DNA of 55,165 bases from a virus. The notes beneath the pieces are model-generated. The model searched no databases. It saw nothing but the letters and a program-made list of their open reading frames with translations, and was not told the origin of the DNA. The stretch covers positions 1 to 55,165 of IMG/VR virus record IMGVR_UViG_3300033144_001879. The stretch is one strand, 5' to 3'. Within the stretch, counting starts at the first letter, position 1. Each line of letters starts with the position of its first letter. Positions 7,003-52,496 of this stretch are shown one piece after another. The position numbers and the translations under genes are program-made.

Positions 7003-7689
7003 ATGACGAAGAAGAAGAGTCCGGCAAAGCGCAAAGTCCGAAGTGCGCCGAAAGCGAAGCCGAAGAAGAAACGGGTCACGAAGCGAACGGCAAAAGCCGC
7101 CGTGAAGAAAGTCGCGAAGAAGCGCGCGGTTCGTGTCGAGCGTCCGTCGAAGAAGACGAAGAAGAAAGCCGCGAAGAAGAAGACGAAGAAGAAAGGCGGC
7201 CGCCCGAGTAAGTTCAAACCCGAGTTTCAAGAGCAAGCGAAGCAACTCGCCGAGCTTGGCGCGACCGATGCGCAAATGGCGAAGTTCTTCGGCGTTACCG
7301 AGACAACGCTCAACAACTGGAAGAAATCTCACGCGAAGTTTTTTGAGTCCCTAAAGCTTGGGAAAGCGGTCGCCGACGATCGGGTCGAGAAGTCACTCTT
7401 TCAGCGCGCGAACGGTTACGAACACGAAGAAGAGAAGATCCATTTCGATCGGTGGGGCGACGTTTGTCGAGCGAACACGATCAAGCACTATCCGCCGGAC
7501 ACGACCGCGTGTATTTTCTGGCTCAAGAATCGCCGGCCGGATGACTGGCGCGACAAGGTCGAAACTCAGCACACGGTCACACCGGGCGAAGGCGGCTTGA
7601 TCGTTCCGATCGGGATGGACGTCGAGGCATGGAATAAAGCGGCGGCGCGTCAACAAGCGATCATGAAGAGCGGGACCGGCGGCGAGTAG
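7003..7689 (+). CDS. terS: Terminase small subunit with lysine-rich tail
   Basis: A 228-residue protein. Residues about 75-180 look like a phage small terminase: GGRPSKFKPEF, then a helix-turn-helix (LGATDAQMAKFFGVTETTLN), then DRVEKSLFQRANGYEHEEEK and CIFWLKNRRPDDWRDK. Small terminases recognise packaging sites and deliver DNA to the large subunit. The first 65 residues are remarkable: almost only Lys, Arg, Ala, Thr, Val and Pro, like histone H1 tails, and end in an AT-hook-like GGRPSK. The gene ends two bases before terL. The usual family length is about 150-180 residues, so the tail is an addition. Confidence 0.88.
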   Translation: MTKKKSPAKRKVRSAPKAKPKKKRVTKRTAKAAVKKVAKKRAVRVERPSKKTKKKAAKKKTKKKGGRPSKFKPEFQEQAKQLAELGATDAQMAKFFGVTETTLNNWKKSHAKFFESLKLGKAVADDRVEKSLFQRANGYEHEEEKIHFDRWGDVCRANTIKHYPPDTTACIFWLKNRRPDDWRDKVETQHTVTPGEGGLIVPIGMDVEAWNKAAARQQAIMKSGTGGE

Positions 7690-7691
7690 AC

Positions 7692-9173
7692 GTGAACGGA
7701 CCGGCAATAGCCGCGACGACGGAGAGCCTTGTCGCACCATTGCCGGTTTCCGCCGGCGTCTGGACGGCTCTAGAGGGCTCTCAACGGCTCTTCTTGAATT
7801 GCCCGCATTTCGAAGTTTTGTACGAGGGAACTCGGGGGCCGGGAAAAACCGACTCGATGTTGATGTGCTTTGCGCAGCGCGTCGGGCTCGGTTACGGCGA
7901 CCGATGGCAAGGCGTGATCTTTCGGCGCGAGTACAAGGAACTCGACGATCTCGTCAAGAAGTCGAAGCGGTGGTTCTACGAAATATTCGGCAACGACGTT
8001 CGATGGCTTGCTTCGAAATCGGATTACAAATGGGTGTGGAAGACCGGCGAAGAACTCTCATTCCGAACCGGCAAAAACGAAGACGATTATTGGAATTATC
8101 ACGGACACGAGATCCCGTTTCTCGGTTTCGAAGAACTCACGAATTGGGCGTCGCCGGCCTTTTACTTGACGATGTTCTCCGTCTGTCGTTGCGGAGATCC
8201 GCGCGTTCCGTGCATGGTCCGAGCGTCGGCGAATCCGTGGGGTAAAGGTCACGGATGGGTGAAGCTTCGCTTCATTGATAACAGTCCGCCGGGGATTCCG
8301 TTTCTCGATCCCGACACGAACAAAACGCGCGTTCGGATCTTTGGCTCGATCTCCGAAAACCCGTATCTCACCGACGAATATTTGAACACGCTTCGGAGCG
8401 TCGAGGATCCGAACAAGCGGAAGGCATGGATCCTCGGCGACTGGAACATCTCGGCCGGCGGGATCCTCGAAGGCGCATACGACGAGACCACTCACGAGAT
8501 CGCGCCGTTCAAGATCCCGGCGTCGTGGCGCGTCGATCGTGCGTTCGATTGGGGATCCTCGAAACCGTATTCGGCGGGATGGTTTGCCGAGAGCGACGGC
8601 TCGCCGGCGACGATCACGAACGAAGATGGAACGGAAACGAAGAAGCACTTCCCGCGCGGGACCGTCTTTCATATCGCCGAGCTTTACGGGTACAACGGAA
8701 AACCCGATGTCGGCGTGAAGCATACGAACAAAGAAATTTGCGAGCGCGTGAAAGAAGTCGAAGCCGGCTTGTGTCCGCGCTTGTTGAAGAAAGGGACGAT
8801 GATTTACGACGGACCGGCCGATGCCTCGATCTTCGACGTGATAAACGGCGACAGTTACGCGGACGAAATGTCGCGGAACGGCGTGGTATGGTTGGCAAGT
8901 TACAAGGGCAAGGGATCACGCGTTCAAGGTTGGGACCGACTTCGCTCGATGTTGCTCGCCGCAAAACGCGGCAATCGAGAAGAGCCCGGATTCTATGTTT
9001 TCAACACTTGCCGAAATTGGATTCGAACCGTCCCGGTGTTACCGCGCGACGACAAGAACCCGGACGACGCGGATTCCGAAGCCGAAGATCATTGCGGAGA
9101 TATGACCCGCTATCGGTTGCTTCGTGAGAAACCGCAAGAGCCGCAATTGATCGAAATAGGTTGGACTACTTGA
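7692..9173 (+). CDS. terL: Terminase large subunit
   Basis: A 493-residue packaging motor with GTG start. The ATPase half shows a Walker A GTRGPGKT at 46-53 and a Walker B IPFLGFEE at 141-148, with the coupling segment MVRASANPWGKGHGWV at about 175-190 as in phage terminases. The nuclease half has the expected acidic residues: FDWG near 285-288, YDGPAD near 372-377, and EDHCGD near 465-470. It cuts concatemers and pumps DNA through the portal encoded next. Length and order are normal for the family. Confidence 0.96.
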   Translation: MNGPAIAATTESLVAPLPVSAGVWTALEGSQRLFLNCPHFEVLYEGTRGPGKTDSMLMCFAQRVGLGYGDRWQGVIFRREYKELDDLVKKSKRWFYEIFGNDVRWLASKSDYKWVWKTGEELSFRTGKNEDDYWNYHGHEIPFLGFEELTNWASPAFYLTMFSVCRCGDPRVPCMVRASANPWGKGHGWVKLRFIDNSPPGIPFLDPDTNKTRVRIFGSISENPYLTDEYLNTLRSVEDPNKRKAWILGDWNISAGGILEGAYDETTHEIAPFKIPASWRVDRAFDWGSSKPYSAGWFAESDGSPATITNEDGTETKKHFPRGTVFHIAELYGYNGKPDVGVKHTNKEICERVKEVEAGLCPRLLKKGTMIYDGPADASIFDVINGDSYADEMSRNGVVWLASYKGKGSRVQGWDRLRSMLLAAKRGNREEPGFYVFNTCRNWIRTVPVLPRDDKNPDDADSEAEDHCGDMTRYRLLREKPQEPQLIEIGWTT

Positions 9174-9185
9174 GGGAATGAAATC

Positions 9186-10706
9186 ATGACAGTTAAAGCA
9201 ACGCACCCGGATTATTCCGATCGCGCGAACTCGTGGGAGAAAATGCGCGACGTGATCAACGGAGAAGAAGCGATCAAAGCCGGCGGCGTGAAGTATCTTC
9301 CGCAACCGAGTGGACGTGACGACGACGATTATTTGCGTTACGTCGAACGCGCTCAGTTCTTCGACGCGACGAGCAAGACTTCGGCCGGGATGGTTGGCTC
9401 GATCTTTCGGAAACCGCCGACGGTTGAACTTCCGAACGCCATCGAGTATTTGAACGATGATTCGGACGGGAAAGGAACACCGCTCGAACAACTCGCGAAA
9501 GATGCATCGAGCGAAGTGATCGATCTCGGACGTGTCGGGATCATGGTCGATATGCCTTCGGTCCCTGAAGCGAAGCGTCTCGACGAAGAGCGCGCTCTCA
9601 ATGCCGAAGCTCGGCTCTATGTTTATTCGGCCGAGTCAATTATCAATTGGTCTTATCGGCAAGTCGGAAGCGTTTACCAATTGGCGCGAGTTGTTTTGAA
9701 AGAGACGATCGAAGTTGAAGGCGACGACGAGTTCGAGGTTAAAGACGCGACGCTTTATCGCGTATTGGATCTCGAAGACCAGTCGGAAGAACTCGCGGCC
9801 GGTTATCGTGTGCGACTCTTCGAAGAAGACGCCGACGGTGAGATCGGCGACGCGACCGAATACCGACCGACGCTTCCGAACGGCGAGCGGCTCGACTTTA
9901 TTCCGTTTACGTTCGTCGGCTCGAATGACAATACGTCGAGCGTCGACAAGCCGCCGCTTCTCGACATCGCGAACGTAAACGTCGGGCACTATCGGAACTC
10001 GGCGGACTACGAAGACTCGTTGTTCATGGTTGGACAACCGACGCCGGTAATCACCGGGCTCGACAATCAATTCATCGAGAAGCACAAAGGCTCGTTTGTT
10101 GTCGGGTCTCGAACTGCTTGGCTCTTACCTACCGGATCGACGGCGGATATGCTCGAATCGACGCGAGATCTCGGGGCGATGGCGGGCGCTCTCGATCGGA
10201 AAGAAAAGCAAATGATTCAACTCGGCGCGAAACTGATCGACTCGAATCGTGCCGGCGTGGAAGCGGCCGAGACGATCAAGCTTCGGCAAGCCGGCGAAGC
10301 GTCCGTTCTCGGATCGATCGCCTCGAACGTGAGTCGCGGCTTTACGATTGCGCTCAACTGGCTTTCGTTGTGGATGTCGGGAACCGGTGACGATGTCACG
10401 TTCGCCGCGAACACCGACTTTTTCCCGGCGCGTCTTTCTTCGGCGGATCTGAAAGAACTCGTCGCGAGTTGGCAAGGCGGCGTGATCACTTACGGAACGC
10501 TGTTCGAAAACTTGGTTGCCGGCGAAATTGTAACCGCCGGAACCGACGTCGAGGATTACGAAGCCGAACTCGAAGAAGAGGCGCTCAAGAATCCGTCGCC
10601 GCCACTCGGCGACGAAGATCTCGACGACGACGACGAAGACGAAGACGAGACAATCGTCATTGTTGAAGAAGAGGAAGAAGAGGAAGAAGAGGAAGAAGAG
10701 GAATGA
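9186..10706 (+). CDS. Portal protein (DUF4055-like) with acidic tail
   Basis: A 506-residue protein. Its start (THPDYSDRANSWEKMRDVIN, then YLPQPSG, RAQFFDATSKTSAGMVGSIF) and middle (GLDNQFIEKHKGSFVVGSRT, EAAETIKLRQAGEASVLGSI) fit DUF4055 portal proteins. The portal is the dodecameric ring at the capsid vertex through which DNA enters and to which the tail attaches; its position after terL agrees. Residues about 478-506 are an extreme acidic tail of Asp then Glu residues ending in thirteen Glu. The next gene starts in an ATGA overlap at the stop. Confidence 0.9.
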   Translation: MTVKATHPDYSDRANSWEKMRDVINGEEAIKAGGVKYLPQPSGRDDDDYLRYVERAQFFDATSKTSAGMVGSIFRKPPTVELPNAIEYLNDDSDGKGTPLEQLAKDASSEVIDLGRVGIMVDMPSVPEAKRLDEERALNAEARLYVYSAESIINWSYRQVGSVYQLARVVLKETIEVEGDDEFEVKDATLYRVLDLEDQSEELAAGYRVRLFEEDADGEIGDATEYRPTLPNGERLDFIPFTFVGSNDNTSSVDKPPLLDIANVNVGHYRNSADYEDSLFMVGQPTPVITGLDNQFIEKHKGSFVVGSRTAWLLPTGSTADMLESTRDLGAMAGALDRKEKQMIQLGAKLIDSNRAGVEAAETIKLRQAGEASVLGSIASNVSRGFTIALNWLSLWMSGTGDDVTFAANTDFFPARLSSADLKELVASWQGGVITYGTLFENLVAGEIVTAGTDVEDYEAELEEEALKNPSPPLGDEDLDDDDEDEDETIVIVEEEEEEEEEEEEE

Positions 10707-11245
10707 AACCGGGTCTCATTATCGGAATAACCGGTTGCGCCGGATCCGGCAAAACGACGCTTGCGGATTTCTTTTCGTCGGCGTACTTCGCGACGCCGTT
10801 GTCGTTTGCGGATCCGATCAAAGCCGCGTTGAATGCGGCCTTCGGTTTTACCGGCGAGCAATGGCTCGACCGCAATTGGAAAGAGCAAGTCGATTTCGAA
10901 CTCGGGATCTCGCCGCGTGAGTTGATGCAAACGCTCGGGACCGATTGGGGGCGGAATATGATTTGCTCCGACGTTTGGGTGAAGTTGCTTTTCTCGAAAT
11001 GGAAGAGCGCCGGTCGACCGTTCGCGGTTGTCGCTGATATTCGTTTCGATAATGAAGCGCGGGCAATTCTCGCCGAAGGCGGAATCGTTGTGAATGTCGA
11101 GCGGCCGGAGATCGAGAAGGTCGCCGATCATGTTTCCGAAGATGGGATCTCGCGCGAACTTATTTCGGTAACGGTTTACAACATCGGAACGGTTGACGAA
11201 TTGACGCGACTCGGCGAAGCCGCGATCATTGCCCGGATCGAATAA
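10703..11245 (+). CDS. Deoxynucleoside monophosphate kinase
   Basis: A 180-residue P-loop kinase. The Walker A motif GCAGSGKT is at 11-18, followed by PLSFADPIKAALNAAFG, SPRELMQTLGTDWGRN and a VVADIRFDNEA segment; this order matches phage dNMP kinases such as T4 gp1. They phosphorylate dTMP, dGMP or modified dCMP to feed DNA synthesis. Its location between portal and minor head genes is unusual; nucleotide enzymes normally sit with replication genes. It overlaps the portal stop, so it will be expressed late with head genes. Confidence 0.88.
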   Translation: MKPGLIIGITGCAGSGKTTLADFFSSAYFATPLSFADPIKAALNAAFGFTGEQWLDRNWKEQVDFELGISPRELMQTLGTDWGRNMICSDVWVKLLFSKWKSAGRPFAVVADIRFDNEARAILAEGGIVVNVERPEIEKVADHVSEDGISRELISVTVYNIGTVDELTRLGEAAIIARIE

Positions 11246-12321
11246 TGCCGAAGACCGTCAACGAGCTTCTTCGCGATTCGTCGATTAAACATTCAATTTA
11301 TGTGACGCGATACACGACCGGCGTCGTGAAGCAAATGCTCGCGTTGATCAATAAGACCGATCAAGACATTTTGCGACGCCTTCGCTCCATGAACCTGCCC
11401 GGAGCCCGGACGCCTTATCAGCGGGCAAGACTCGAAAAACTGCTATCAGGGCTAAGGGGTATAAACGAAGCCGGCTACGGGGCGTTCAATGCGGCTCTGC
11501 GCAAGACGTTTATTTCGTTCGCGACGTATGAACTCGACTTCATGGCGCGGCAAATCGAGGCCGCGATCGTTGTCGACTTCGAAGCCGTCGTGCCGGCGGC
11601 CGGGACTGTTTACTCGGCGGCGATGACGACGCCAATGCAGGGAAAGTATTTCAAAAACTGGATGAAAGATCTTGAGGCGAACAAGATCCGGGCGATCAAC
11701 GACGCAATTCGGATCGGCGTCGTCGAGGGAGAGACGAACGCGGCGATCGTGAGTCGGTTGCGCGGAACTCGTGCGGCCGGATACAAAAACGGCGTAATGG
11801 GAATTCACCGGAGACACGCCGAAGCCATCGTTCGAACTTCGGTCAATCATCTTATGAGTACGGCGCGGCGAAACCTGATCAACAAGAACACGGACGTTCT
11901 TGCCGGCTGGCAATACGTCGCGACGCTCGATGGTCGGACAACTGATATTTGCATGAGTTTGGACGGCAACTTTTACAAGGTGAGGGCCGAGGGACCGACG
12001 CCGCCGCAACATATCAATTGCCGATCCGCGATGTCACCGGTCACGAAGTCATGGAAAGAAATGGGGATCGATAAAGAAGAGTTGACGCCGGCGAAGCGCG
12101 CCTCGATGTCGGGTCCGGTTCCGGCGAAGACGACTTATCAAACTTGGCTCAAGGGACAAGGGAACAAATTTCAGAACGACGTGCTTGGCAAAACGAAAGC
12201 GCAACTCTTCCGCGATGGCGGCGTGACGCTCGATCGTTTCGTCGACGCTTCCGGCCGGAGTTACACGCTCGCACAACTCGCCGCGAGAGAAGCGCAAGCT
12301 TTTGCCGCGATCGGCGGATAA
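11245..12321 (+). CDS. Minor head / head morphogenesis protein (Mu gpF-like)
   Basis: A 358-residue protein whose start shares a base with the kinase stop (TAATG). Residues about 195-275 carry the Phage_Mu_F signature: HAEAIVRTSVNHLMSTARRN, then GWQYVATLDGRTTDICMSLD and PPQHINCRSAMSPV. SPP1 gp7 and Mu gpF proteins sit inside the capsid near the portal and help DNA ejection or assembly. The N-terminal 150 residues are helical. A strong hairpin follows the stop. Confidence 0.9.
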   Translation: MPKTVNELLRDSSIKHSIYVTRYTTGVVKQMLALINKTDQDILRRLRSMNLPGARTPYQRARLEKLLSGLRGINEAGYGAFNAALRKTFISFATYELDFMARQIEAAIVVDFEAVVPAAGTVYSAAMTTPMQGKYFKNWMKDLEANKIRAINDAIRIGVVEGETNAAIVSRLRGTRAAGYKNGVMGIHRRHAEAIVRTSVNHLMSTARRNLINKNTDVLAGWQYVATLDGRTTDICMSLDGNFYKVRAEGPTPPQHINCRSAMSPVTKSWKEMGIDKEELTPAKRASMSGPVPAKTTYQTWLKGQGNKFQNDVLGKTKAQLFRDGGVTLDRFVDASGRSYTLAQLAAREAQAFAAIGG

Positions 12322-13288: not shown

Positions 13289-13331
13289 ATACGCGAAAGC
13301 GTATAAAACCAATCCATACGCGAACGCGTAT
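13289..13331. repeat. Pair of ATACGC inverted repeats
   Basis: Two small hairpins lie in tandem: ATACGC-GAAA-GCGTAT at 13289-13304 and ATACGCG-AA-CGCGTAT at 13316-13331. Each is self-complementary and they share the same arm. They lie just after the barrel gene and before a strong terminator; they could stabilise the mRNA end or bind a protein. Confidence 0.75.
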
Positions 13332-13345
13332 GAGAAAAGAAACGG

Positions 13346-13383
13346 AAACGCGGAACCCGGTGATCGGGCTCCGCGTTTTTCGT
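13346..13383. terminator. Rho-independent terminator between convergent genes
   Basis: AACGCGGA-(A)-CCCG pairs with CGGG-(C)-TCCGCGTT around a GTGAT loop and is followed by a T run on the + strand. The opposite strand has a moderately T-rich exit. It ends the rightward cargo island and probably also the leftward operon that stops at 13392. Confidence 0.85.
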
Positions 13384-13391
13384 TCAACGAT

Positions 13392-13811
13392 CTACCGAGA
13401 TTCGTCGTCCAATGAGACGTTAAGATTTATCGCCGCATAGGTGAAGCTCACTCCGTTGTCGAAACTCATGCTTCGGTCGTACTCGATGCCGACGTGATCG
13501 ACCGGCATTCCGGTGCGCTTCGTGAAACCGGTCAAGAGATCGAGAATCGTCTCTTCGGTTAACCGCTTCAGTTCTCGCGCGCCGGCTAACGTCTTGATGT
13601 CTTTCTCGGCGGCGGCGATTACGAGCAATTCTCGATATGACGGTGGTACGTCGGCGTACTTGATGACCGCGTCCGCTTCTTCGATGACTTCTCGCATTGT
13701 AAGATCGAAGCCTTCGATCGGATCGTCGATCGAATCGTTTTGTTGTGCGCTTGCCATCGCGTAACCGCAAAGCTTGTTGAGCATGAGTCGTGATTTCGTT
13801 GGGTTCTTCAT
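13392..13811 (-). CDS. Hypothetical early protein
   Basis: A 139-residue protein, last gene of the leftward operon that starts at 16763. It is mostly helical in its first 100 residues (IEGFDLTMREVIEEADAVIK, ELLVIAAAEKDIKTLAGARE) and ends in a beta-like segment with VGIEYDRSM. The start overlaps the previous gene's stop (ATGA). No family recognised. Confidence 0.75.
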   Translation of the reverse strand: MKNPTKSRLMLNKLCGYAMASAQQNDSIDDPIEGFDLTMREVIEEADAVIKYADVPPSYRELLVIAAAEKDIKTLAGARELKRLTEETILDLLTGFTKRTGMPVDHVGIEYDRSMSFDNGVSFTYAAINLNVSLDDESR

Positions 13812-14044
13812 GACTTTGGTTCTCCCTTGTCGGTGAATGGTGAGCGAACTCGAAGCTTTTCTCGGATTACTCCGAGATCTTCTTCGACGTCGCTCAAGTA
13901 TTGAAGCGCGAGTTCGAGAGTTCGAATCGAGACGCTTGCGAAATTATTTCGGCCGCTTCCGTGCTTCCGAGAATTGGTCGCGATCTTGATTGTCTCTTTC
14001 ACGCCGGCGAGTTTTTCTTCGCTTGTTAGATGTCCGTAAATCAT
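13808..14044 (-). CDS. Hypothetical early protein
   Basis: A 78-residue helical protein with a ribosome site of the AGGGAACC type ahead of its ATG at 14044. The reading frame is open further upstream but the AGGGAACC site fixes this start. Patterns such as SIRTLELALQYLSDVEEDLG suggest a helical hairpin. Function unknown. Confidence 0.7.
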   Translation of the reverse strand: MIYGHLTSEEKLAGVKETIKIATNSRKHGSGRNNFASVSIRTLELALQYLSDVEEDLGVIREKLRVRSPFTDKGEPKS

Positions 14045-14058
14045 TTCGGTTCCCTCGG

Positions 14059-14277
14059 TTACAGAACGGTGACGCGATAATACCGCCAACCGTAATCGGC
14101 GGAGATCTTGCCGGACTTGATCAGGCTCCGAACGGCGGCGGCGGTTGAGTGAAAGTCGAAACGATAGCCGGGTTTCGTCGTGACGTCGGCATATTGACTT
14201 GTTGCGATGTCGAGTTCCGTTCCGCGCTTCTTGCCGGCGATGAACTCGGAGAGATCTTGAACGTTTTGCGATTTCAT
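14059..14277 (-). CDS. Small hypothetical protein, possible winged-helix
   Basis: A 72-residue protein behind an AAAGGAACC ribosome site. TAAAVRSLIKSGKISADYGWRYYRVTVL resembles the recognition helix and wing of a small winged-helix fold (a helix, a Gly-Lys turn, then two strands). DNA binding is a possibility, not shown. Function unknown. Confidence 0.7.
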   Translation of the reverse strand: MKSQNVQDLSEFIAGKKRGTELDIATSQYADVTTKPGYRFDFHSTAAAVRSLIKSGKISADYGWRYYRVTVL

Positions 14278-14291
14278 GATCGATGGTTCCT

Positions 14292-14609
14292 TTAATTAGG
14301 TTGGGTTAATTCAAGGTTGGTGTGGTCGAGTTTCTTCAGGTGGTGAATCGGAAGGTTTGGCGGTATCGATTGCCAGCCATCGGCCGCGAGGATCTTACAG
14401 GTCGCGACGAGTGCTTCCGGGTGCGCTTCTTTCATGTGCGCATGGAGTCGACCGCGTTGCTTGTTGCCTTCGCGGAAACCGGCTCCGCGACCGCGACCGC
14501 ATCGGCGCACGTCGACGAAGTTACAAAGCCGGCAACCGCGAGCGATTGCAAACGGTCCCTTCGTGACGGTGACGAGCGCGTCGGTTGCTCTTGTGATGTT
14601 GTGTCTCAT
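14292..14609 (-). CDS. Zinc-finger-like phage protein
   Basis: A 105-residue protein with CRLCNF (C-x2-C) at about residue 27, a Gly/Arg-rich loop (RRCGRGRGAGFREGNKQRGR) and then LHAHMKEAHPEA, giving His ligands for a Cys2-His2-like finger. The loop is much longer than in classical fingers. The ribosome site is AAAGGAACC. It may bind nucleic acid. Confidence 0.7.
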   Translation of the reverse strand: MRHNITRATDALVTVTKGPFAIARGCRLCNFVDVRRCGRGRGAGFREGNKQRGRLHAHMKEAHPEALVATCKILAADGWQSIPPNLPIHHLKKLDHTNLELTQPN

Positions 14610-14627
14610 GAGTCGGGTTCCTTTAAG

Positions 14628-14807
14628 TCAAAAGACATTGAGCGGCGAACGTTGCTCTTGTTCGAGTCGGTCGATCCGACGAAGTGCGTTCGTCAATGCC
14701 GCGCGGAGTTCGAGAAGAATCTCGTCGCGGTTCGGTGTCGCGTCGCCGCTCAAGACGTCGGCGGCTTCGGATGCTTCGCCGTGAAGCAATGTATTGAAGC
14801 GACTCAC
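14628..14807 (-). CDS. Short helical protein with GTG start
   Basis: A 59-residue gene starting at a GTG that overlaps the stop of the gene before it (GTGA). The protein is acidic-helical (DEILLELRAALTNALRRIDR) and ends in LEQEQRSPLNVF. Both the coupling and the compact fit between neighbours support it. Confidence 0.65.
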   Translation of the reverse strand: MSRFNTLLHGEASEAADVLSGDATPNRDEILLELRAALTNALRRIDRLEQEQRSPLNVF

Positions 14808-14989
14808 GAGAAGATCCGCGCTTCGCGATAACGGCGAGCCTGTTTCTTCTTCGCGAGCTTCGAGATCTCTTTCGCTTTCCGCCGGCGCTTTTGCACGATG
14901 TCTTGCCGGTAGGAGTTGCGCCAGTTGTCGCCGACGTCGTGAAGGTCGGAGACGATGTCGAGCATCGTTGGTGCGGTTGTCGTGTTCAT
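14804..14989 (-). CDS. Small basic hypothetical protein
   Basis: A 61-residue protein beginning at ATG 14989 behind AAAGGGAACAACC. The second half is strongly basic (QKRRRKAKEISKLAKKKQAR), suggesting nucleic-acid contact. A longer frame reading through from 15421 is rejected because its extra part is an Arg-rich shadow of the gene at 15058-15465. Confidence 0.7.
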   Translation of the reverse strand: MNTTTAPTMLDIVSDLHDVGDNWRNSYRQDIVQKRRRKAKEISKLAKKKQARRYREARIFS

Positions 14990-15057
14990 GGTTGTTCCCT
15001 TTGTCGTTGGTCGTTGGTCGAGTGTGGATCTTAACCCGGCAAGCGGCCGGAGCGCAA

Positions 15058-15465
15058 TCAATATGTTTCGTCTTCGATGTACTTGTTCAGGGTCTTGGCG
15101 TCGTCCGAGAAGTGTCCGAGTCTTTCGCAATGCTCGAAGTGGTTCCGGTTCGTGTGATAAGCCGCCGGTCCGCGTTGGTTTTTCTTCGAGTCGATGAGAT
15201 AGGAAGTCCACAGTCTTTCGTGTCGGTCGTACCATGCGATTCGGATTCCGTTCGAAAACCATTCGTCGTCTTCGCTCCAGTTCGATCGGTGAAGAAGCGA
15301 CTTTTCTTTCGTTCGGTATTCGATCAAGCCATGCTCGTCGAGTTTCCAAAGCAAGCCGCGCTCGGCGCAATAAGTATCGATCGTGCGATTGCAGTCGTCG
15401 TAATCCATACCGACAAGCCACTGAAGGGCGCGTTCGGTGGTTCGTTGTCTTGAGAGTGTCTTCAT
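15058..15465 (-). CDS. Hypothetical early protein
   Basis: A 135-residue protein behind the strong ribosome site AAAGGAACCACGAC. It is rich in aromatic and His residues, with a central WYDRHERLWTSYLIDS segment and C-terminal NRNHFEHCERLGHFSDDAK. It may be a compact alpha/beta domain. No family recognised. Confidence 0.75.
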   Translation of the reverse strand: MKTLSRQRTTERALQWLVGMDYDDCNRTIDTYCAERGLLWKLDEHGLIEYRTKEKSLLHRSNWSEDDEWFSNGIRIAWYDRHERLWTSYLIDSKKNQRGPAAYHTNRNHFEHCERLGHFSDDAKTLNKYIEDETY

Positions 15466-15485
15466 TGTCGTGGTTCCTTTCGTGG

Positions 15486-15959
15486 TTAAGAGCGGAGCAT
15501 CCAAAACCCGTAAACGCATCGCGTACCGTTGCGGTCCGGGTTGTAAGTGTCTTCGATGACGTGGTGAATCATCGTCGTGTAATGTTTCGAGACGGCGACG
15601 ACGAGTCGCGCCTTCGGAAGTTCGTCATAGCGAAGGTGAATCTTGCAACCGGTTCCGATACCCATTGTCGGGATCCACTCGAAGCCGAGTTCGTTCATGT
15701 AGTCTTTGAACCACTTCCGGGTCGTGAAGATTCCGTTTCGAGCCGAGCGCTTTCCGGCCGATGCCGATTTGACTGTCGGCGAGCGCCGTTGCGTCGCGTT
15801 GCCGTGCGCGAGCCGATCATAGATCTCACGGTAAGGGCGTTCGGTTGCGATCGTTAGAGCGCGAGTCACGCAGTCTCCGGCGTTGCCTTTGAAGCCGGCC
15901 TCGGCGCGACCGCCGTCGTTGTATCTGAAGATCGTCGTTGTTGTCGTCGGGTTTTCCAT
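15486..15959 (-). CDS. Conserved phage protein, possible papain-like cysteine peptidase
   Basis: A 157-residue protein of a family common in phages. NDGGRAEAGFKGNAGDCVTR places Cys30 at the start of a helix (DCVTRALTIAT), as in papain-fold enzymes. Later, LVVAVSKHYTTMIHHVIEDT gives a candidate catalytic His and Asp/Asn, and GTRCVYGFW closes the domain. By fold logic this could be a peptidase, transglutaminase-like enzyme or a catalytically dead relative. I know no experimentally assigned function. It is well placed to alter a host protein early in infection. Confidence 0.75.
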   Translation of the reverse strand: MENPTTTTTIFRYNDGGRAEAGFKGNAGDCVTRALTIATERPYREIYDRLAHGNATQRRSPTVKSASAGKRSARNGIFTTRKWFKDYMNELGFEWIPTMGIGTGCKIHLRYDELPKARLVVAVSKHYTTMIHHVIEDTYNPDRNGTRCVYGFWMLRS

Positions 15960-15960
15960 C

Positions 15961-16308
15961 TTAGAATTTCCTGAATGTTGTTCCGATGATTTCTTCGGAG
16001 TGAGTGCCGTCTTTCAGAACGATGTGCTTCACGGTGTTGTGCTTCACGCGATCGCCGGACTTGTCCCAAGTGTAACGGTCGGACTCTGGCGTCTCCGGGG
16101 AGAGATCGACGATCGGATCGTGAGTGACGAACTCTCGCGAGCCGTCGCGATGGTTGAGTGACACGCCGTCTTGATGAAGCGCTTTCTTGATTTGCTTCTC
16201 GACGCTTGCAATCGCGTCCGGTGTGTTCGAGTAAAGATGGATCGTCTCGCCGTAACACGCGACGAGAATCGAGCCGTTCTTCAATCCGTCTTTGAGTGGA
16301 TGCGTCAT
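15961..16308 (-). CDS. Hypothetical early protein
   Basis: A 115-residue protein whose ATG overlaps the stop of the gene before it. It contains beta-strand-rich segments (SILVACYGETIHLYS, TVKHIVLKDGTHSEEIIG) and one helix (AIASVEKQIKKALHQDG). No family recognised. Confidence 0.7.
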   Translation of the reverse strand: MTHPLKDGLKNGSILVACYGETIHLYSNTPDAIASVEKQIKKALHQDGVSLNHRDGSREFVTHDPIVDLSPETPESDRYTWDKSGDRVKHNTVKHIVLKDGTHSEEIIGTTFRKF

Positions 16309-16763
16309 GATGTAAACCCTCGCGCTTTCCGGTTGGCTTTGTGGATTTCCATTTGCGCGTCGACTTCGTCTTCGTTGCCGCGATTGAAAGTTGACGGTGT
16401 GCAAGCTTTCAATTCGTCGCGATCTTCTCGGATGCCGTCTTGATAACCGAAAGAGTCGGATCCGTAACCACTTTCGAGAATCGACTCGTATCTCGCGATC
16501 GTTGATTCGATATTTCTTGCGGCGACTTCGATTGCTTTTGCGGCGGCGGCTTCGTCGGTTAAGAGTTTGAATGTTCCGCACGTTTCGGAAGCGGCGATCG
16601 GGGCGAAGTGGTGGCCGAGCATTTCGTTCGTGTCGCGGTCGTGCAAACACATTTGCTTTGCGCCGCAAGAGTGGACGCGGACTTGACGGAAAGAAATCGT
16701 TCCCTTGCCGTCCCAGTTTTCGATGAGAGTCGCGAGTTCGTTTTTCGTGAATTCTTTTGACAT
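16305..16763 (-). CDS. First gene of leftward early operon, hypothetical
   Basis: A 152-residue protein. ATG 16763 is chosen because it directly follows the conserved leader shared with the operons starting at 45951 and 49213; the open frame extends upstream over the promoter and cannot be used. N-terminal FTKNELATLIENWDGKG suggests a small helical domain, followed by a Cys/His cluster (VHSCGAKQMCLHDRD) and a long helix (AAAKAIEVAARNIESTIARY). Function unknown. Confidence 0.75.
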   Translation of the reverse strand: MSKEFTKNELATLIENWDGKGTISFRQVRVHSCGAKQMCLHDRDTNEMLGHHFAPIAASETCGTFKLLTDEAAAAKAIEVAARNIESTIARYESILESGYGSDSFGYQDGIREDRDELKACTPSTFNRGNEDEVDAQMEIHKANRKARGFTS

Positions 16764-16797
16764 GGTCGGGTCTCGTGAGTGGTCGGTCAATGTTGAG

Positions 16798-16826
16798 AAT
16801 GTACGCCTACCCGTTGGGTGCGCCAA
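16798..16826 (-). promoter_or_regulatory. Early promoter A with ACCC-N3-GGGT operator
   Basis: On the minus strand, TTGGCG and TACATT are separated by 17 bases. The spacer contains the inverted repeat ACCC-AAC-GGGT (TACCCGTTGGGT on the + strand at 16808-16819). The leader down to the ATG (ACCACTCACGAGACCCGACC) is nearly identical to that of promoters B and C. The site would let a bound protein block the promoter. Confidence 0.65.
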
Positions 16827-17087
16827 GCAAAACGCAACACTTTTTGAAAGAAAGTTCGGAAGGTCAATGTTTACGCGGGTTTGAGCGTTCCTGATTTTCC
16901 TCGATTTCGACAAACTTCACGCGGTTTGCGCGCTCTTTTTGGCCGATAAAACGCTCCGGCGTGTTCCATCGACAATCGCGTCGGAGCCGTTCGTGGCGTT
17001 CACTCTCGCTCGTTCTTTCCATTTGCTGTGATCTCCGTTTGACGTGTCGCGAAGTATCGCACGAGATCGAATCATTTTCTTATGCCG
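16827..17087. other. Non-coding divergent interval
   Basis: About 260 bases between the leftward early promoter and the rightward virion block. No convincing gene is visible on either strand; the leftward frame that enters it is upstream of the chosen start. It is richer in A and T than its flanks in parts (for example AACACTTTTTGAAAG). Apart from the bordering promoters I see no clear element. Confidence 0.5.
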
Positions 17088-17117
17088 TTGTTTGTTCCCG
17101 AAGTCGCGGTCTATACT
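17088..17117 (+). promoter_or_regulatory. Probable promoter for rightward block
   Basis: TTGTTT at 17088-17093 and TATACT at 17112-17117 are separated by 18 bases. The near-consensus minus-10 box lies about 19 bases before the TTG start chosen for the next gene, so an in-frame ATG at 17082 would be upstream of the transcript. Confidence 0.5.
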
Positions 17118-17135
17118 TGTCGAAAGGTTGATATT

Positions 17136-17360
17136 TTGAAGCGATTAAAATTGATACATTGCGCGGACCGGAGCCCGACGGGTGAAAGTTTGCACGAGCC
17201 GGAATATACTCTAGTGAGTTGTCCGGTTTGTAATTCGACGACAACGATCGAAGCGAACGTCGGAGCAATGACCCGAGACGGAAAGAACGTCGAGGGCGGA
17301 CACAAGCAACGCATTTGCGTTCAGTGTTTGATCGAAGGCAAGTTGACGCCAGTTCTTTAA
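17136..17360 (+). CDS. Small zinc-ribbon-like protein
   Basis: A 74-residue protein if TTG 17136 is used, preceded by GAAAGG eight bases upstream; ATG 17082 would give 92 residues but lacks a ribosome site and lies before the likely promoter. Two C-x2-C knuckles (SCPVCNS and RICVQCLIEG) about 37 residues apart fit a zinc ribbon. It could be a regulator of the following virion genes, since a terminator separates it from them, but this is inference. Confidence 0.6.
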   Translation: MKRLKLIHCADRSPTGESLHEPEYTLVSCPVCNSTTTIEANVGAMTRDGKNVEGGHKQRICVQCLIEGKLTPVL

Positions 17361-17381
17361 GAACGACGCGCTCAACTCAGC

Positions 17382-17417
17382 AAAGACAAACGGCGAAAGT
17401 CGTTCGTCTTTTTTTTT
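17382..17417 (+). terminator. Rho-independent terminator
   Basis: AAGAC-AA-ACG pairs with CGT-TC-GTCTT around a GCGAAAGT loop and is followed by nine T. It sits between the small zinc-ribbon gene and the scaffold gene. Virion genes would therefore need a further promoter, read-through or antitermination. Confidence 0.8.
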
Positions 17418-17460
17418 GGCTCGCCGAGCGAGCATCACAAGACCCCGAGGGAATAGGAAA

Positions 17461-18225
17461 ATGCCTGACGTAGATCTCAAAAGTCCAGAAGTAAAAGCGG
17501 CGATCGCGGAAGCAGTTAAAGAAGCAACCGGCGGATTGCAAAAGCAAATTGACACGGCGGTTTCGAAAGCGACCGAAGGTCTCAAGAGCAAAAACACGGA
17601 GTTGCTCGGAGAGGTAAAGAAATTTAAGACGAAGGCGTCGACAGTACCCGACGACTTCGACGTGAAAGCCTACGAAGAAATGTTGAAGGCTCAAACGGAC
17701 GCGGCGGAAGACGCGGCGAAACAAGCGGGCAAGTGGGACGAGTACAAAGCGGAATTGGTCGCGGAGCATAAGACGCGAGAAGCGGAGTTACTTCAGGGTA
17801 ACGAGAAGCTGAAAGCGCAACTCGAAAATGTTCTCGTCACGAACGAAATTATGGGCGCGATTGGACGCGCGAAAGGCAACTCTGATTTGTTGATGCCGCA
17901 CGTCCGAACGCAAGTGAAATTGATTGAAGAGAACGGCGAGCAAGTTGCTCGCGTGATCGACAAGGCCGGAAACGCAAGAATCTCCGGCGCGGAAGGCGAC
18001 TTCATGAACATTGAGCAATTGCTCGGTGAACTCAAAGAGTCGGAAACTTTCGCACCATGTTTTGAAGGCTCACGAGCGACAGGGTCGGGCGCGGGCGGAA
18101 GCGGAAGCGGCGGAGCCGGTGGTGATAATCCGTTTTCAAAAGACACGCTCAATCTTACCGAGCAAGCGAGATTGAAGCGCGTCGATCCGGTCGCGGCCGA
18201 ACGATTGAAAAAGGCGGCGGCATAA
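17461..18225 (+). CDS. Capsid scaffolding protein
   Basis: A 254-residue protein directly before the major capsid gene, as expected of scaffolds. Residues 10-150 are almost continuous charged helix (AAIAEAVKEATGGLQKQIDT, AELVAEHKTREAELLQGNEK), giving a coiled-coil rod. Residues 205-225 are a Gly/Ser linker, and the C-terminus (LNLTEQARLKRVDPVAAERL) is a short helical capsid-binding motif typical of scaffolds. It would shape the procapsid and leave before packaging. ATG 17461 follows AGGAAA. Confidence 0.85.
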   Translation: MPDVDLKSPEVKAAIAEAVKEATGGLQKQIDTAVSKATEGLKSKNTELLGEVKKFKTKASTVPDDFDVKAYEEMLKAQTDAAEDAAKQAGKWDEYKAELVAEHKTREAELLQGNEKLKAQLENVLVTNEIMGAIGRAKGNSDLLMPHVRTQVKLIEENGEQVARVIDKAGNARISGAEGDFMNIEQLLGELKESETFAPCFEGSRATGSGAGGSGSGGAGGDNPFSKDTLNLTEQARLKRVDPVAAERLKKAAA

Positions 18226-18254: not shown

Positions 18255-19241
18255 ATGGCCGCTACAAAAATTTCAGACATCATCGTTCCCGATGTCTTCG
18301 ATCCATATGTAACCGAGAAAACGGCCGAACTGACCGAATTATTTCTCGGTGGCATCATCAACCACGATCCGCAGTTCGACGAGCTTGCGAGTTCGGGCGG
18401 CACTATTTTGCAAATGCCGTTCTTCACTGATTTGACCGGAGCCGACGAAGTTCTCGCCGACGATGGTTCATTGACGGCGGGCGCAATCGGGACCGGTAAA
18501 GATCAAGCGCGGATGCACTTACGCGGCCGAGCTTGGGGCGTTAACGATTTGGCGAAAGCTTTGTCGGGCGAAGATCCAATGCGAGCAATCGCGGATCTCG
18601 TTTCTACTTATTGGGCGCGACGTTTTCAAGACGTCCTGATCGCTTCCTTGAAGGGTTGCTTTCTTGACGACGCCGGAGACGACGACGACATGAGTGTCGA
18701 CATTTCTCAGGCCGAAGGCTCGACTGCTGACGCAACCAATTGGATTGGTCCGGCCGGCGTAATTGCCGCCGCCGGTACACTCGGCGACGCCGCCGGTAAA
18801 CTCACCGCGATTGCAATGCATAGCGTCTGCTATCAGCGCTTGCAATTGCTCGAAGTGATTATCTACGAGCGTCCAGCCGGAACCAACATCAAGATTCCGT
18901 ATTACCTCGGTTATCGCGTGTTGGTCGATGACAATATGCCCGTTGTTGCTGGTGGAACCGATGGCTTCGTTTACACGTCGTATCTGTTTGGCGAAGGTGC
19001 GTTCGGATTCGGTCAAGGCTCCGCGCCAGTACCGAGTGAGACCGATCGCGATTCGTTGGCCGGTGAAGACTATCTCATTACGCGCAATCACTACATCATG
19101 CACCCTCGCGGTTATGCATGGGTAGAGACGACCGTAACGGGCGAGTCTCCGACGAATGTCGAGGCCGCTCTCGCCGTGAACTGGAATCGCGTCTATACGC
19201 GAAAGAACGTTCGTTTTGCTCAACTGAAGACGAACGGCTAG
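18255..19241 (+). CDS. Major capsid protein
   Basis: A 328-residue protein with the layout of the HK97-fold phage coat family: N-terminal KISDIIVPDVFDPYVTEKTA, GGTILQMPFFTDLTGADEVL, HLRGRAWGVNDLAKALSGED, LVSTYWARRFQDVLIASLKG, then IKIPYYLGYRVLVDDNMPV and C-terminal TRNHYIMHPRGYAWVE. It forms the capsid shell. It is placed after the scaffold, has a clear GAAGGA ribosome site and is followed by a terminator-type hairpin, consistent with high expression. Confidence 0.95.
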   Translation: MAATKISDIIVPDVFDPYVTEKTAELTELFLGGIINHDPQFDELASSGGTILQMPFFTDLTGADEVLADDGSLTAGAIGTGKDQARMHLRGRAWGVNDLAKALSGEDPMRAIADLVSTYWARRFQDVLIASLKGCFLDDAGDDDDMSVDISQAEGSTADATNWIGPAGVIAAAGTLGDAAGKLTAIAMHSVCYQRLQLLEVIIYERPAGTNIKIPYYLGYRVLVDDNMPVVAGGTDGFVYTSYLFGEGAFGFGQGSAPVPSETDRDSLAGEDYLITRNHYIMHPRGYAWVETTVTGESPTNVEAALAVNWNRVYTRKNVRFAQLKTNG

Positions 19242-19330: not shown

Positions 19331-19501
19331 ATGAGTGTTACCGCATTTAATCGTCAACGACGTGACGTTGCCGCGAGAGCCGCGAGCGAAGTTCCGGCCG
19401 AAGTTGAGGTCGTCGAAGAAGTTGTCGAGCCCGAAGTTGAAGTCGAGCCCGAAGTTGAAGTCGAGCCCGCTCCGAAGACGCGCAAGAAGAAAAAGAAATG
19501 A
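19331..19501 (+). CDS. Tiny protein with acidic repeat and lysine tail
   Basis: A 56-residue gene. N-terminal MSVTAFNRQRRDVAARAA is typical of small genes after capsid genes. The centre is a tandem repeat of VEPEVE units coded by an 18-base DNA repeat, and the end is KTRKKKKK. The stop overlaps the next ATG (ATGA). The opposed acidic and basic blocks are striking. Function unknown. Confidence 0.75.
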   Translation: MSVTAFNRQRRDVAARAASEVPAEVEVVEEVVEPEVEVEPEVEVEPAPKTRKKKKK

Positions 19502-24009: not shown

Positions 24010-26490
24010 ATGGCGGACCCGATTCAAAACTTTGCGTTGAGAACCGAAGCCGAGAAAGGCTCCGGGGATCCGCAAGACTTATCGCTTCGGAACGAAGCCG
24101 AGAAAGAAGAGTCGGGCGGCGGTGCGGATGAAACGGCGAGCGGTTCGCCTACGCTTGGCGGATTGACTTCGAGCGGAACCGCCGAGATCGAAAAACAAGC
24201 AAGCGGATCTCCGACGCTCGGCGGACTCACTTCGGGCGGAGCGTCGAAAGTTGTTCGGGCGGCGATCGGTGCGGCGACTTTGGCGGCGATTGTGGTCGCC
24301 GGCGTGTCCGTCGTCAGTCGCCCTGCAAGCGGTTCTCCGGCACTTTCTCCGATTACGTCTCAAGGTATAGGCGTAATTCGAAAGGTCGCGAGCGGTACAC
24401 CGACGCTTGCTCCGCTCACGTCCGCCGGCTCCGGTGAGATTATCAAGTCCGCGTCGGGATCTCCGACGATTTTGGCGATCACTTCGACGGGTGCGGTCGA
24501 GATCATCAAGCCGGCTTCGGGATCCCCGACGTTGGATCCGATCACGTCGACCGGCGCTTCGGTCTTGGGTGTTGAGAAGACGGCGAGTGGATCTCCGACG
24601 CTTGAATCTCTGACGTCTTCGGCTTCGTCATTCATTTGGCCGCGCGTCTATTTGAACACGACTCCGACGCTCTCCGGTGCGGTCGAAATGCTCGTGACGG
24701 ATGCGAGCGCGGACGGAACATCAATCGAGTTCACGGATCCGATCGGAGCGCCACTCGGGGCCGCTTGGCTCGGCGTCGAAAACCAAAATAATCACGACAT
24801 CGGATGGATTGCCGTTGTCGTCGGCGACGACAAGACCGCGAGCGGAGCGGCGACACTTCAAGCAATCGTTTCGGCGGGTGCGTCGAAGATCGTCAAGCCG
24901 GCGAGCGGTGCTTCGGTATTGCCGGCGCTTATCTCGACCGGCGTCACCGAGGTTGAGAAACGGGCGAGCGGGTCGAGTGTACTTCAAGCGATCACGTCGA
25001 CCGGTAACGGTGAAGTCGAGAAGCAAGCGAACGGAGCGTCGACGCTTCAAGCGATTGTTTCTTCCGGTGTCTGTGAAATCGAAAAACAGGCAAGCGGCGC
25101 GGCGATACTTTCCGCCATTATTTCGAGCGGCGATTGTGAGGTCGTCAAGGTTGCGTCCGGCGCTTCAGTACTTCAGGAAATCACGAGCGCGGGCGATAGT
25201 GCGACGGGAAGAGAAGCGAGCGGCGCGTCGGTGCTTCAGTCGATTACGTCGAGCGGCGTTTCGAATATTGAAAAGCCGGCGAGCGGATCTCCGAGTTTAT
25301 CTCCGATCACGTCTTCGTCCGTTGCTTCGATCAAAAAGATTGCGAGTGGATCCCCGGTACTCGATGCGATCGTCTCGGCCGGTCTCTCTGAAATCATCGC
25401 AGTTGCGAATGCGACCGCGACACTCCAACCGATCACGAGTTCGGGTGTTGCTGAAGTAATCGGAGTCGCAACCGCCGGCGGCGGCGCGATACTTCAACCG
25501 ATCACGAGCGCGGGCGACTCTGAAATCATCAAGCCGGCGAGCGGCGATGCGACGCTTTCCGCGATTATCTCCGACGGTTCGGCCGATCTTGCCGGTAAAC
25601 TTACGGCGAGCGGCGGACCGGTTCTCGATCCGATCACGTCGGCGGGTGTTGCCGGCAAGGAATCTTCGGCGGCCGGCGCTTCGACATTGCAACCGATCAC
25701 GTCGGCGGGTGTTGCTGAAGACATTCGGAAGGCGAGCGGCGCTTCGGTTCTCGACGCGATCACTTCGAGCGGTGTTTCGTCTCGACAAGAGATCGCGAGC
25801 GGAGCGTCTTCACTTCAAGCGATAACTTCCGCCGGTGTTGCGGAGCGAACACTCGTCACGAGTGGATCCCCGAGCTTGTCGCCGATTACATCGGGCGGCA
25901 ATGCAACGGCGAAGAAGAAAGCAAGCGGAGCGCCTTCGCTCGATCCAATTACGTCCGCCGGTACTGCGACGACCGAAGAGCCGCCGAAGCAAGCGAGCGG
26001 AGCGCCGACACTTCAGGCTCTCACGTCCGCCGGTGTTGCGGAGCGCAAAGCAATCGCGAACGGCGCGGGGATTCTTTGGGAACTTTATTCGGCCGGAGAC
26101 GCGAACGACATTCAAGTCGCTTCGAGCGCGGCTTCGCTTCAACCGATAACGTCGAGCGGATCTTCGAGGATCGTCAAAGACGCCGACGCGTTTGCGACAT
26201 TGGATCCAATAACCTCGGCCGGTGTTGCCGGACTGAAGTTGACATCGAGCGCCGCGATTACGTTGCCCGCTCTTATTTCGAGCGGCGTCGTTGTCAATCT
26301 CGACGCGCCGAGAACGCCGTCGGTCGAGGTTACTGCGAACGTCGACGGAACCGAGATCGAGGTTCTCACCGAAGAGAACGTCGAAGTCGGCGCGCTTGTT
26401 TCGGATCTTCTCGATATACTGACCGAGTCAAGTGTCGAAGTTGATGCGCGAGTTTCGCCGCTTAATCTTAACGGCTACATGGACACATAA
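24010..26490 (+). CDS. Repeat protein 2: about 31 x 21-residue repeats
   Basis: An 826-residue protein built almost entirely from the same unit as the gene at 21272 (consensus ASGSPTLQAITSAGVAEIKK). I count about eight units, an unrelated 65-residue insert at about 213-277 (from SFIWPRVYLNTTPT to VVVGDDK), then about 23 more. A few units have two or three extra residues. Residues after about 765 (PSVEVTANVDGTEIEVLTEE) form a distinct acidic end. It is Ser/Thr/Ala/Gly-rich, has no Cys pairs or signal peptide, and probably forms an extended fibre or coat on the particle. Confidence 0.75.
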   Translation: MADPIQNFALRTEAEKGSGDPQDLSLRNEAEKEESGGGADETASGSPTLGGLTSSGTAEIEKQASGSPTLGGLTSGGASKVVRAAIGAATLAAIVVAGVSVVSRPASGSPALSPITSQGIGVIRKVASGTPTLAPLTSAGSGEIIKSASGSPTILAITSTGAVEIIKPASGSPTLDPITSTGASVLGVEKTASGSPTLESLTSSASSFIWPRVYLNTTPTLSGAVEMLVTDASADGTSIEFTDPIGAPLGAAWLGVENQNNHDIGWIAVVVGDDKTASGAATLQAIVSAGASKIVKPASGASVLPALISTGVTEVEKRASGSSVLQAITSTGNGEVEKQANGASTLQAIVSSGVCEIEKQASGAAILSAIISSGDCEVVKVASGASVLQEITSAGDSATGREASGASVLQSITSSGVSNIEKPASGSPSLSPITSSSVASIKKIASGSPVLDAIVSAGLSEIIAVANATATLQPITSSGVAEVIGVATAGGGAILQPITSAGDSEIIKPASGDATLSAIISDGSADLAGKLTASGGPVLDPITSAGVAGKESSAAGASTLQPITSAGVAEDIRKASGASVLDAITSSGVSSRQEIASGASSLQAITSAGVAERTLVTSGSPSLSPITSGGNATAKKKASGAPSLDPITSAGTATTEEPPKQASGAPTLQALTSAGVAERKAIANGAGILWELYSAGDANDIQVASSAASLQPITSSGSSRIVKDADAFATLDPITSAGVAGLKLTSSAAITLPALISSGVVVNLDAPRTPSVEVTANVDGTEIEVLTEENVEVGALVSDLLDILTESSVEVDARVSPLNLNGYMDT

Positions 26491-51251: not shown

Positions 51252-51715
51252 CAAAACGGAATATCGTCGTCGAAGTCGTCGGGGTGCGGCGCTTGCCCGC
51301 TACTTTCGCCGGCGGTCGCAGGTTGTGAACTGCTATCGCCCGTCGAGTTCGCAGGTTGTGAACTGCGCGGCGCGGCTCCGCCTTCCGGTTTCTTGTCGAG
51401 CATTTTCATTTCGCGGCCTTTGATCTCGGTCGTGTAGCGCTTCACGCCTTCTTTGTCGGTCCACTCGCGAGTTTGAAGCGAGCCTTCGACATAGACTTTC
51501 GATCCTTTGCGGAGAAACTCGCCGCACACTTCGGCGATGCGGCCGAAGAACGCAATCTTATGCCACTCGGTCCGCTCGCGTTGCTCGCCGGTTTGCTTGT
51601 CTTTCCATCGTTCGGAAGTCGCGACGTTGAAGTTCGCGCAAGCGTCTCCGCTCGGCATATATCGAACCTCGGGATCTCCGCCGAGGTTCCCGATAATCAT
51701 TACTTTATTGAGCAT
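51251..51715 (-). CDS. ssb: Single-stranded DNA-binding protein
   Basis: A 154-residue SSB. The OB fold is clear ([80 protein letters not shown]). Residues 110-145 are a Ser/Gly/Pro linker, and the end DDFDDDIPF is the acidic tip that recruits partner proteins. It protects single strands during replication and Bet-mediated annealing. The start overlaps the bet stop by 11 bases. Confidence 0.96.
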
Positions 51716-52496
51716 TGTTTCCGTCTCCCGTTTCCGTGTCTTTACTGATAACTTCGCCCGTCGCTTTGTCTACGTCCGCCGGCGGCTCTTCGGCCGCTTC
51801 GCCGACGCCGAGGACCGACTTAATCCGTTTCGTCGTTGTGTCGCCTTTCACTTCGGGAGCGTCCACAACTTCGTATTCTGCCTCGATGATTCGCTCGGCT
51901 TCGTCGGCGTCATGGATCCCGACAAACCCGAAGCCGATCCGCGCGGCTTGAATCAAAGCCTTGTGACGGAGCATCCGCTTCGTGTGCGTTTGCCACGGTC
52001 CCTTGATCGTGTTTCCGTTCTTCACGAACGGCGGCCGGTACACTTCGTCGAAGTACTCGCGAACGGTGACGGTGTGCGCGCGGTCCGATCGGTGAATGAT
52101 GACTTCGCACCACGACGGACAATCCTTATGTTCGCCGTTCTTCACGATGTCTTCGGAATAAACGAACTCCAATCCGTCGAAGGCTTTATGCTCGTTGATG
52201 ATCCGAGCCCAACCGTCGACGCCGACGACCGGGACGATTCCGCCCTGATCGGGATAGGCGTAAATCTCTTTCGTCCACGGATTGAGGTTGTATTGATCCG
52301 CGACGACGATCAACGCCGCCATTTGTTCGTTAGTGATCTCGACGGCGTTCCGGCCTTTCTGTTTGAACGCAGTCGACTTGAGAGTCGTCATCATTATGGC
52401 GGGATCGAGCCCGTATTTTCCTGCGAACTTTTGAATCAGGGAAACCGACTTCTCGGCTTTGTCTGTGGTCGCAACTTGCTTCGTGTCGTCGGTCAT
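51705..52496 (-). CDS. bet: Bet/RecT-type single-strand annealing protein
   Basis: A 263-residue protein strongly resembling lambda Bet: LKSTAFKQ, then [47 protein letters not shown] and [20 protein letters not shown] and [16 protein letters not shown]. It anneals complementary strands exposed by the exonuclease encoded next to it. The C-terminal 70 residues are acidic. It overlaps ssb at the 3' side and the exonuclease stop at the 5' side (ATGA). Confidence 0.96.

Follow-up and report, generated by a model that had tools for sequence, protein, structure and literature searches.

Oppositely charged tails on the small terminase and portal of a siphovirus head gene cluster: absence of mutual charge covariation, and charge covariation of portal tails with a MuF-type head protein

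The small terminase (TerS) and the portal protein encoded in the virus record IMGVR_UViG_3300033144_001879 (55,165 bases, analysed as a whole and referred to here as the window) carry terminal tails of opposite charge. Within the portal family concerned the charges of these two tails are unrelated, and the acidity of the portal tail covaries with the basicity of a MuF-type minor head protein encoded in the same cluster. We give about an even chance to the reading that the two tails are independent additions, namely a long DNA-binding arm on TerS and a portal tail that lies inside the capsid, where it would anchor the MuF protein and repel DNA. Judged by comparison with homologous sequences, both tails are extreme forms of features that recur in their families.

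The window holds a typical siphovirus head gene cluster. On the plus strand it encodes TerS (7003-7689, 228 aa; phrog_309 terminase small subunit, E 2.7e-54), the large terminase subunit TerL (7692-9173; PF03237, E 1e-4; phrog_2, E 1.3e-34), a DUF4055 family portal (9186-10706, 506 aa, net charge -62; PF13264/DUF4055, E 1.6e-35, 122.8 bits against a cut-off of 25; phrog_145, E 9.8e-142, with the match spanning residues 1-485), a deoxynucleoside monophosphate kinase (10703-11245; PF21448, E 2.2e-22; phrog_139) whose start overlaps the portal stop codon (ATGA), and a MuF/SPP1-gp7-like minor head (head morphogenesis) protein (11245-12321; phrog_241, E 2.4e-137; PF04233, 50.7 bits against a cut-off of 29.6) with a net charge of +20 and a pI of 10.0. 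The scaffold (17416-18225) and the major capsid protein (18255-19241) are also encoded. The gene order TerS-TerL-portal, which we looked for in assigning the small terminase to the phrog_309/Sf6 type, is thus present.

By composition, TerS residues 1-64 (7003..7194, plus strand) form a basic N-terminal extension in which 34 Lys or Arg stand against a single Glu (net +33; binomial p ~2e-12 with the TerS core composition as reference), much as the preliminary description had it (about 65 residues rich in Lys, Ala and Arg). No secondary structure is predicted for this extension, and its pLDDT in the AlphaFold2 model is about 50-60. The same description let the tail end in an AT-hook-like GGRPSK, a reading we reject. 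In an alignment of relatives, residues 65-70 (7195..7212, plus strand) make up the conserved GRPxK motif with which the TerS core opens, so that the GRP is not the free-standing core within a basic stretch that defines an AT-hook but the fixed start of a helix-turn-helix (HTH) domain, similar to the arm of Hin and the resolvases. G66, R67 and P68 are nearly invariant across 13 aligned TerS sequences, and the relatives begin only a few residues upstream of G66, which indicates that the tail is an addition ahead of a complete domain. The Pfam resolvase HTH_7 match likewise begins at residue 66 (at a score below the curated cut-off), and residues 66-119 align with the DNA-binding domain of Hin recombinase (1jkq) from its start (Z 4.0). 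The core (7195..7689, plus strand) probably comprises the HTH DNA-binding domain (helices 74-109) and an oligomerisation part, judging from phrog_309 and from the similarity of the model (mean pLDDT 67.5) to gp1 of Shigella phage Sf6, with which 92 residues align at Z 6.7.

An assembly artefact is unlikely for the TerS tail, because a phage fragment recovered from another metagenome (L005, 99.9% identical) carries the TerS gene, tail included, with the same base at every position; this fragment stops short of the portal and the comparison covers TerS. A wrong start codon was considered and rejected, as codon 34 (GTG) offers the sole in-frame alternative within the tail and the annotated ATG is preceded by AGGGAG. 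GC content by codon position in the tail is similar to that of coding sequence. Among 105 other loci the median TerS leader length is about 6 residues, with a median net charge of 0, and short Lys-rich leaders recur in a few relatives (L222 with MVKKKTPTKKKVVKKAKAKKRSK, L207, L196, L170, L217); automatic TerS calls with long leaders of doubtful start (e.g. L221, L223, L189) were not relied on. The likeness of the tail to histone H1 is compositional: residues 1-64 gave no Pfam match to the H1 or Hc1 families at E 0.01, in profile searches that are weak on low-complexity sequence.

Our search of the open-access literature turned up no publication about small terminases with an N-terminal tail rich in Lys. 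Shorter arms provide a precedent: the N-terminal arm of HK97 TerS enters the minor groove, and a Lys6Ala exchange in the unstructured N-terminus of Sf6 TerS abolishes DNA binding (PMC11331095); the TerS of Bacillus phage SF6 seemingly also has a DNA-binding N-terminal arm (PMC4737164). By analogy, and given its place immediately ahead of a DNA-binding domain resembling that of Sf6, the simplest reading of the tail is a lengthened N-terminal arm that adds non-specific DNA affinity. We infer DNA binding, and any effect on packaging, from these cases; arms protruding from the TerS ring could grip DNA regardless of its sequence while the packaging site is located by the HTH domains. If so, the tail would be a naturally occurring test of how much non-specific affinity for DNA can be tolerated in a small terminase.

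The acidic C-terminal tail of the portal comprises residues 471-506 (10596..10703, plus strand), which by their low pLDDT are predicted to be disordered past the crown; structure alignments stop before them. Of the last 35 residues 25 are Asp or Glu (p ~3e-12). The preliminary description of an Asp-then-Glu tail with thirteen terminal Glu holds for the composition and for the Glu count, with the correction that a TIVIV segment separates the D-rich part from the Glu run. The 13 terminal Glu (10665..10703, plus strand) are encoded by a perfect 9-bp tandem repeat, (GAAGAAGAG)4 followed by GAA, which is the only purine or pyrimidine run of at least 16 bases in the entire window. A perfect repeat that is the sole run of its kind suggests that slippage probably lengthened the Glu stretch, recently and at the very end of the gene. 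The run of 13 Glu could be nothing more than an expanded repeat, a point against our favoured reading of the tail.

DUF4055 portals occur in 1,481 phage records, and acidity of the C-tail is widespread in the family. Among 200 unique portal relatives the mean net charge of the tail is -6.6 (sd 3.0), and 92% have tails of net -3 or lower. With a net charge of -25 the present tail is the most acidic of the 201 unique portals. The next in this set (net -17) belongs to the nearest relative, L108 (49% identical), and has a different Asp-rich sequence, which suggests that charge rather than sequence has been kept. A portal with a tail of net -19 (L389) was added by a later TerL-based search and lies beyond the 201-portal set.

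The AlphaFold2 model of the portal monomer (mean pLDDT 80.5) ends in a last helix at residues 455-468, after which pLDDT is mostly below 50. Portal C-terminal tails are often disordered and absent from structures. Model residues 1-470 align with chain residues 5-468 of the portal of Acinetobacter phage SH-Ab15497 (8xb5, Z 36.1) and residues 1-466 with residues 43-476 of the 80alpha portal (8v8b, Z 20.9); the SPP1 portal (7z4w) is matched with Z 20.0. These matches identify a portal fold with a C-terminal crown. In the 80alpha portal, residues 432-480 form the crown, which faces the packaged DNA and may interact with it, and the last 29-35 residues are invisible (PMC10541612). Since homologous portal structures have their C-terminus at the crown, the acidic tail is expected inside the capsid, away from the clip.

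This topology bears directly on the proposal in the preliminary description that the basic TerS tail binds the acidic portal tail and thereby docks the terminase-DNA complex on the portal. The terminase of 80alpha most likely uses the clip, at the opposite, external end from the lumenal crown (PMC10541612), and a map of the HK97 motor shows the large and not the small terminase at the portal (PMC10359639). Docking would agree with the presence of both tails, each at its family extreme, in one genome, and with a locus (L375) in which a fairly basic TerS leader accompanies a portal tail of net -12. However, the two charges vary independently in relatives: among loci that combine a DUF4055 portal with a same-family TerS, the charge of the TerS leader shows no correlation with that of the portal tail (n=23, rho -0.07; n=24, rho -0.11). 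Many upstream genes in the survey of 200 portal relatives are unconfirmed as TerS, and neither the L108 nor the L028 contig is long enough to include TerS. A correlation in the pooled set of mixed portal families (rho -0.31) is in the direction expected from docking, but it is confounded by portal family and vanishes within DUF4055 portals; moreover, pooled portal tails that accompany strongly basic TerS leaders are no more acidic than others (-4.2 vs -4.0). The preliminary description named, as evidence against docking, relatives that lose one tail, keep the other and package normally; mismatches of the tails themselves are found in both directions. Strongly acidic portals occur with a profile-confirmed TerS devoid of a basic tail (L389, -19; L373, -15; L316, -13), portal tails of net -12 (L077, L089, L091) likewise accompany a TerS that has no basic tail, and in L265 a basic TerS tail occurs with an average portal tail (-6). 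The lack of covariation, the mismatches in both directions and the topology together make direct docking unlikely; we have dropped it as the leading model and consider it highly improbable.

Charge comparison points to a different candidate partner for the acidic tail. Among 70 representatives at 60% portal identity, with the portal and MuF protein of the present record excluded, portals with a more acidic tail are accompanied by a more basic MuF protein (rho -0.48, p=2.5e-5). This relation is stable from 90% to 45% clustering (at 40%, n=26, p is 0.05), is unchanged after removing GC, and persists when charge is taken per residue and when the MuF proteins are limited to those of ordinary length (rho -0.52). 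L108 combines its portal tail of net -17 with a MuF protein of net +12. In independent contrasts on the representatives r ranges from -0.43 to -0.46 with sign-flip p of 0.0001 to 0.005 (e.g. r -0.44, p=0.001); rank tests of these contrasts are weaker (p 0.003 to 0.085, with 0.06-0.09 at 60% and 50% clustering), and contrasts over all 181 unfiltered nodes give only r -0.15 (p 0.05). TerL of the same loci shows no charge relation with the portal tail, and in rank tests neither the scaffold nor the portal core shows a relation of the kind found for portal tail and MuF. Scaffold, TerL and major capsid protein (the latter with a small set) were therefore rejected as partners, as none gave a consistent charge relation. 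Since several partners were tried, the p values for portal and MuF have to be discounted somewhat for multiple testing.

A basic MuF protein held in part by an acidic crown tail is topologically possible and is backed by this covariation. Binding of the two would have its closest parallel in SPP1, where the portal protein gp6 interacts strongly with gp7 and directs it into the procapsid (PMC6316719). The most likely reading is that the disordered tail on the crown acts as an electrostatic anchor that helps to bring the MuF/gp7-like protein into the procapsid, and at the same time keeps the crown clear of packaged DNA by repulsion. Assembly of SPP1 can do without gp7, so a link between tail and MuF may bring little benefit. 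More tentatively, and with the balance of probability somewhat against it, acidic crown tails and basic MuF proteins of DUF4055-portal phages may co-evolve in charge as a general electrostatic means of loading the internal proteins of the head, of which the present phage would show an extreme form. The charge relation is a lead to follow, as it bears on one possible task of the tail, the recruitment of a protein to the head interior. Interest in MuF-type proteins goes further, since some carry fused toxin domains for which targeting to the capsid by the same route has been proposed (PMC6316719).

Other explanations account for part of these observations. The acidic tail might act without any protein partner and simply keep DNA away from the lumenal opening of the portal, either by repelling DNA or by mimicking it, which would prevent non-specific DNA binding or help release. 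This agrees with a crown that faces packaged DNA and with the net negative tails of most relatives, and in P22 the acidic N-loop of the scaffold has been linked to release of the scaffold as DNA is packaged (PMC12005531). The preliminary description had offered a similar pair of roles as its alternative (a basic tail that binds DNA, an acidic tail that keeps DNA away), and precedent from other phages is what speaks for both. Repulsion alone, however, leaves unexplained why portal tails covary with MuF but not with scaffold, TerL or portal core, and we think it somewhat unlikely to be the full account. A little less probable still is that both tails are near-neutral low-complexity expansions, in which slippage at purine-rich codon repeats lengthened an ordinary leader and an ordinary C-tail with little added selected function. 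Such an origin would fit the perfect repeat behind the terminal Glu run and, within the TerS tail, a 12-bp repeat that is imperfect; it would also fit the lack of conservation of the tail sequences and the fact that both tails extend weak family-wide tendencies. On the other hand, codons are varied and perfect repeats are absent in the D-rich part of the portal tail and in most of the TerS tail, the L108 portal has retained acidity with a different sequence, and the covariation with MuF suggests that charge is under selection. Finally, the Glu codons might serve the RNA, the GAGGAA repeats being the ribosome-binding site of the overlapping kinase gene. The kinase ATG indeed overlaps the portal stop with repeated, Shine-Dalgarno-like GAGG motifs ahead of it, and neighbouring genes carry Shine-Dalgarno-like sites; yet a single GAGG would suffice, the Asp-rich part and the acidic tails of relatives would be left unexplained, and the D-rich tail of L108 runs directly into the MuF gene. 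We regard this reading as improbable.

Compared with known systems, the TerS described here shares the GRPxK start and probably the HTH domain with small terminases of the phrog_309/Sf6 gp1 type, from which it differs by its basic leader of 64 residues in place of a median of about 6. The arms of the HK97, Sf6 and Bacillus SF6 small terminases are flexible and contact DNA or are needed for binding, and they are short, in contrast to the 64 residues of histone-H1-like composition found here. The solved example of a DUF4055 portal, that of SH-Ab15497, has the same fold over residues 1-470 and its C-terminus at the crown. An acidic C-tail is the norm among DUF4055/phrog_145 portals, whereas a net charge of -25 and 13 terminal Glu are peculiar to the present one. 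SPP1 gp6 and gp7 correspond to the same pair of neighbouring genes, which are separated here by the nucleotide kinase gene; binding of gp6 to gp7 is known in SPP1, and the electrostatic link between portal tail and MuF protein that we propose by analogy would be a new element of this association.

Possible genes on the minus strand occupy about 4 kb (13300-17400) and separate the gene for the MuF/SPP1-gp7-like minor head protein (MuF) from the scaffold gene, running opposite to the direction of the head cluster. Most of them have an unknown function, and two PHROG matches were to families of unknown function. Genes for a RecT/Bet-like annealing protein and a RecE/YqaJ-like exonuclease (51705-53419) also lie on the minus strand.

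Immediately past the major capsid gene, there is a perfect 18-bp repeat of 2.6 copies (GTCGAGCCCGAAGTTGAA; 19424-19469). Other repeats are located within ORFs: two arrays of a 63-bp repeat (24412-24551 and 25605-25776) both fall within a single 826-aa ORF (24010-26490), for which no Pfam match was found, and 9-bp and 27-bp tandem repeats (35795-36687; units such as CGGCAACGA) are found in a 1855-aa ORF (33312-38879).

A nucleotide kinase gene (10703-11245), which overlaps the portal stop codon, lies between the portal and MuF genes; in L108, the locus of the nearest portal relative, the MuF gene directly follows the portal gene. The 586-aa portal relative of another related locus (L039:2159-3916) carries a C-terminal extension of approximately 100 residues consisting of repeating Val/Glu-rich units (PPTVTVEAAQINVEAPNITVEG), in contrast to the short, acidic tails of the other relatives.
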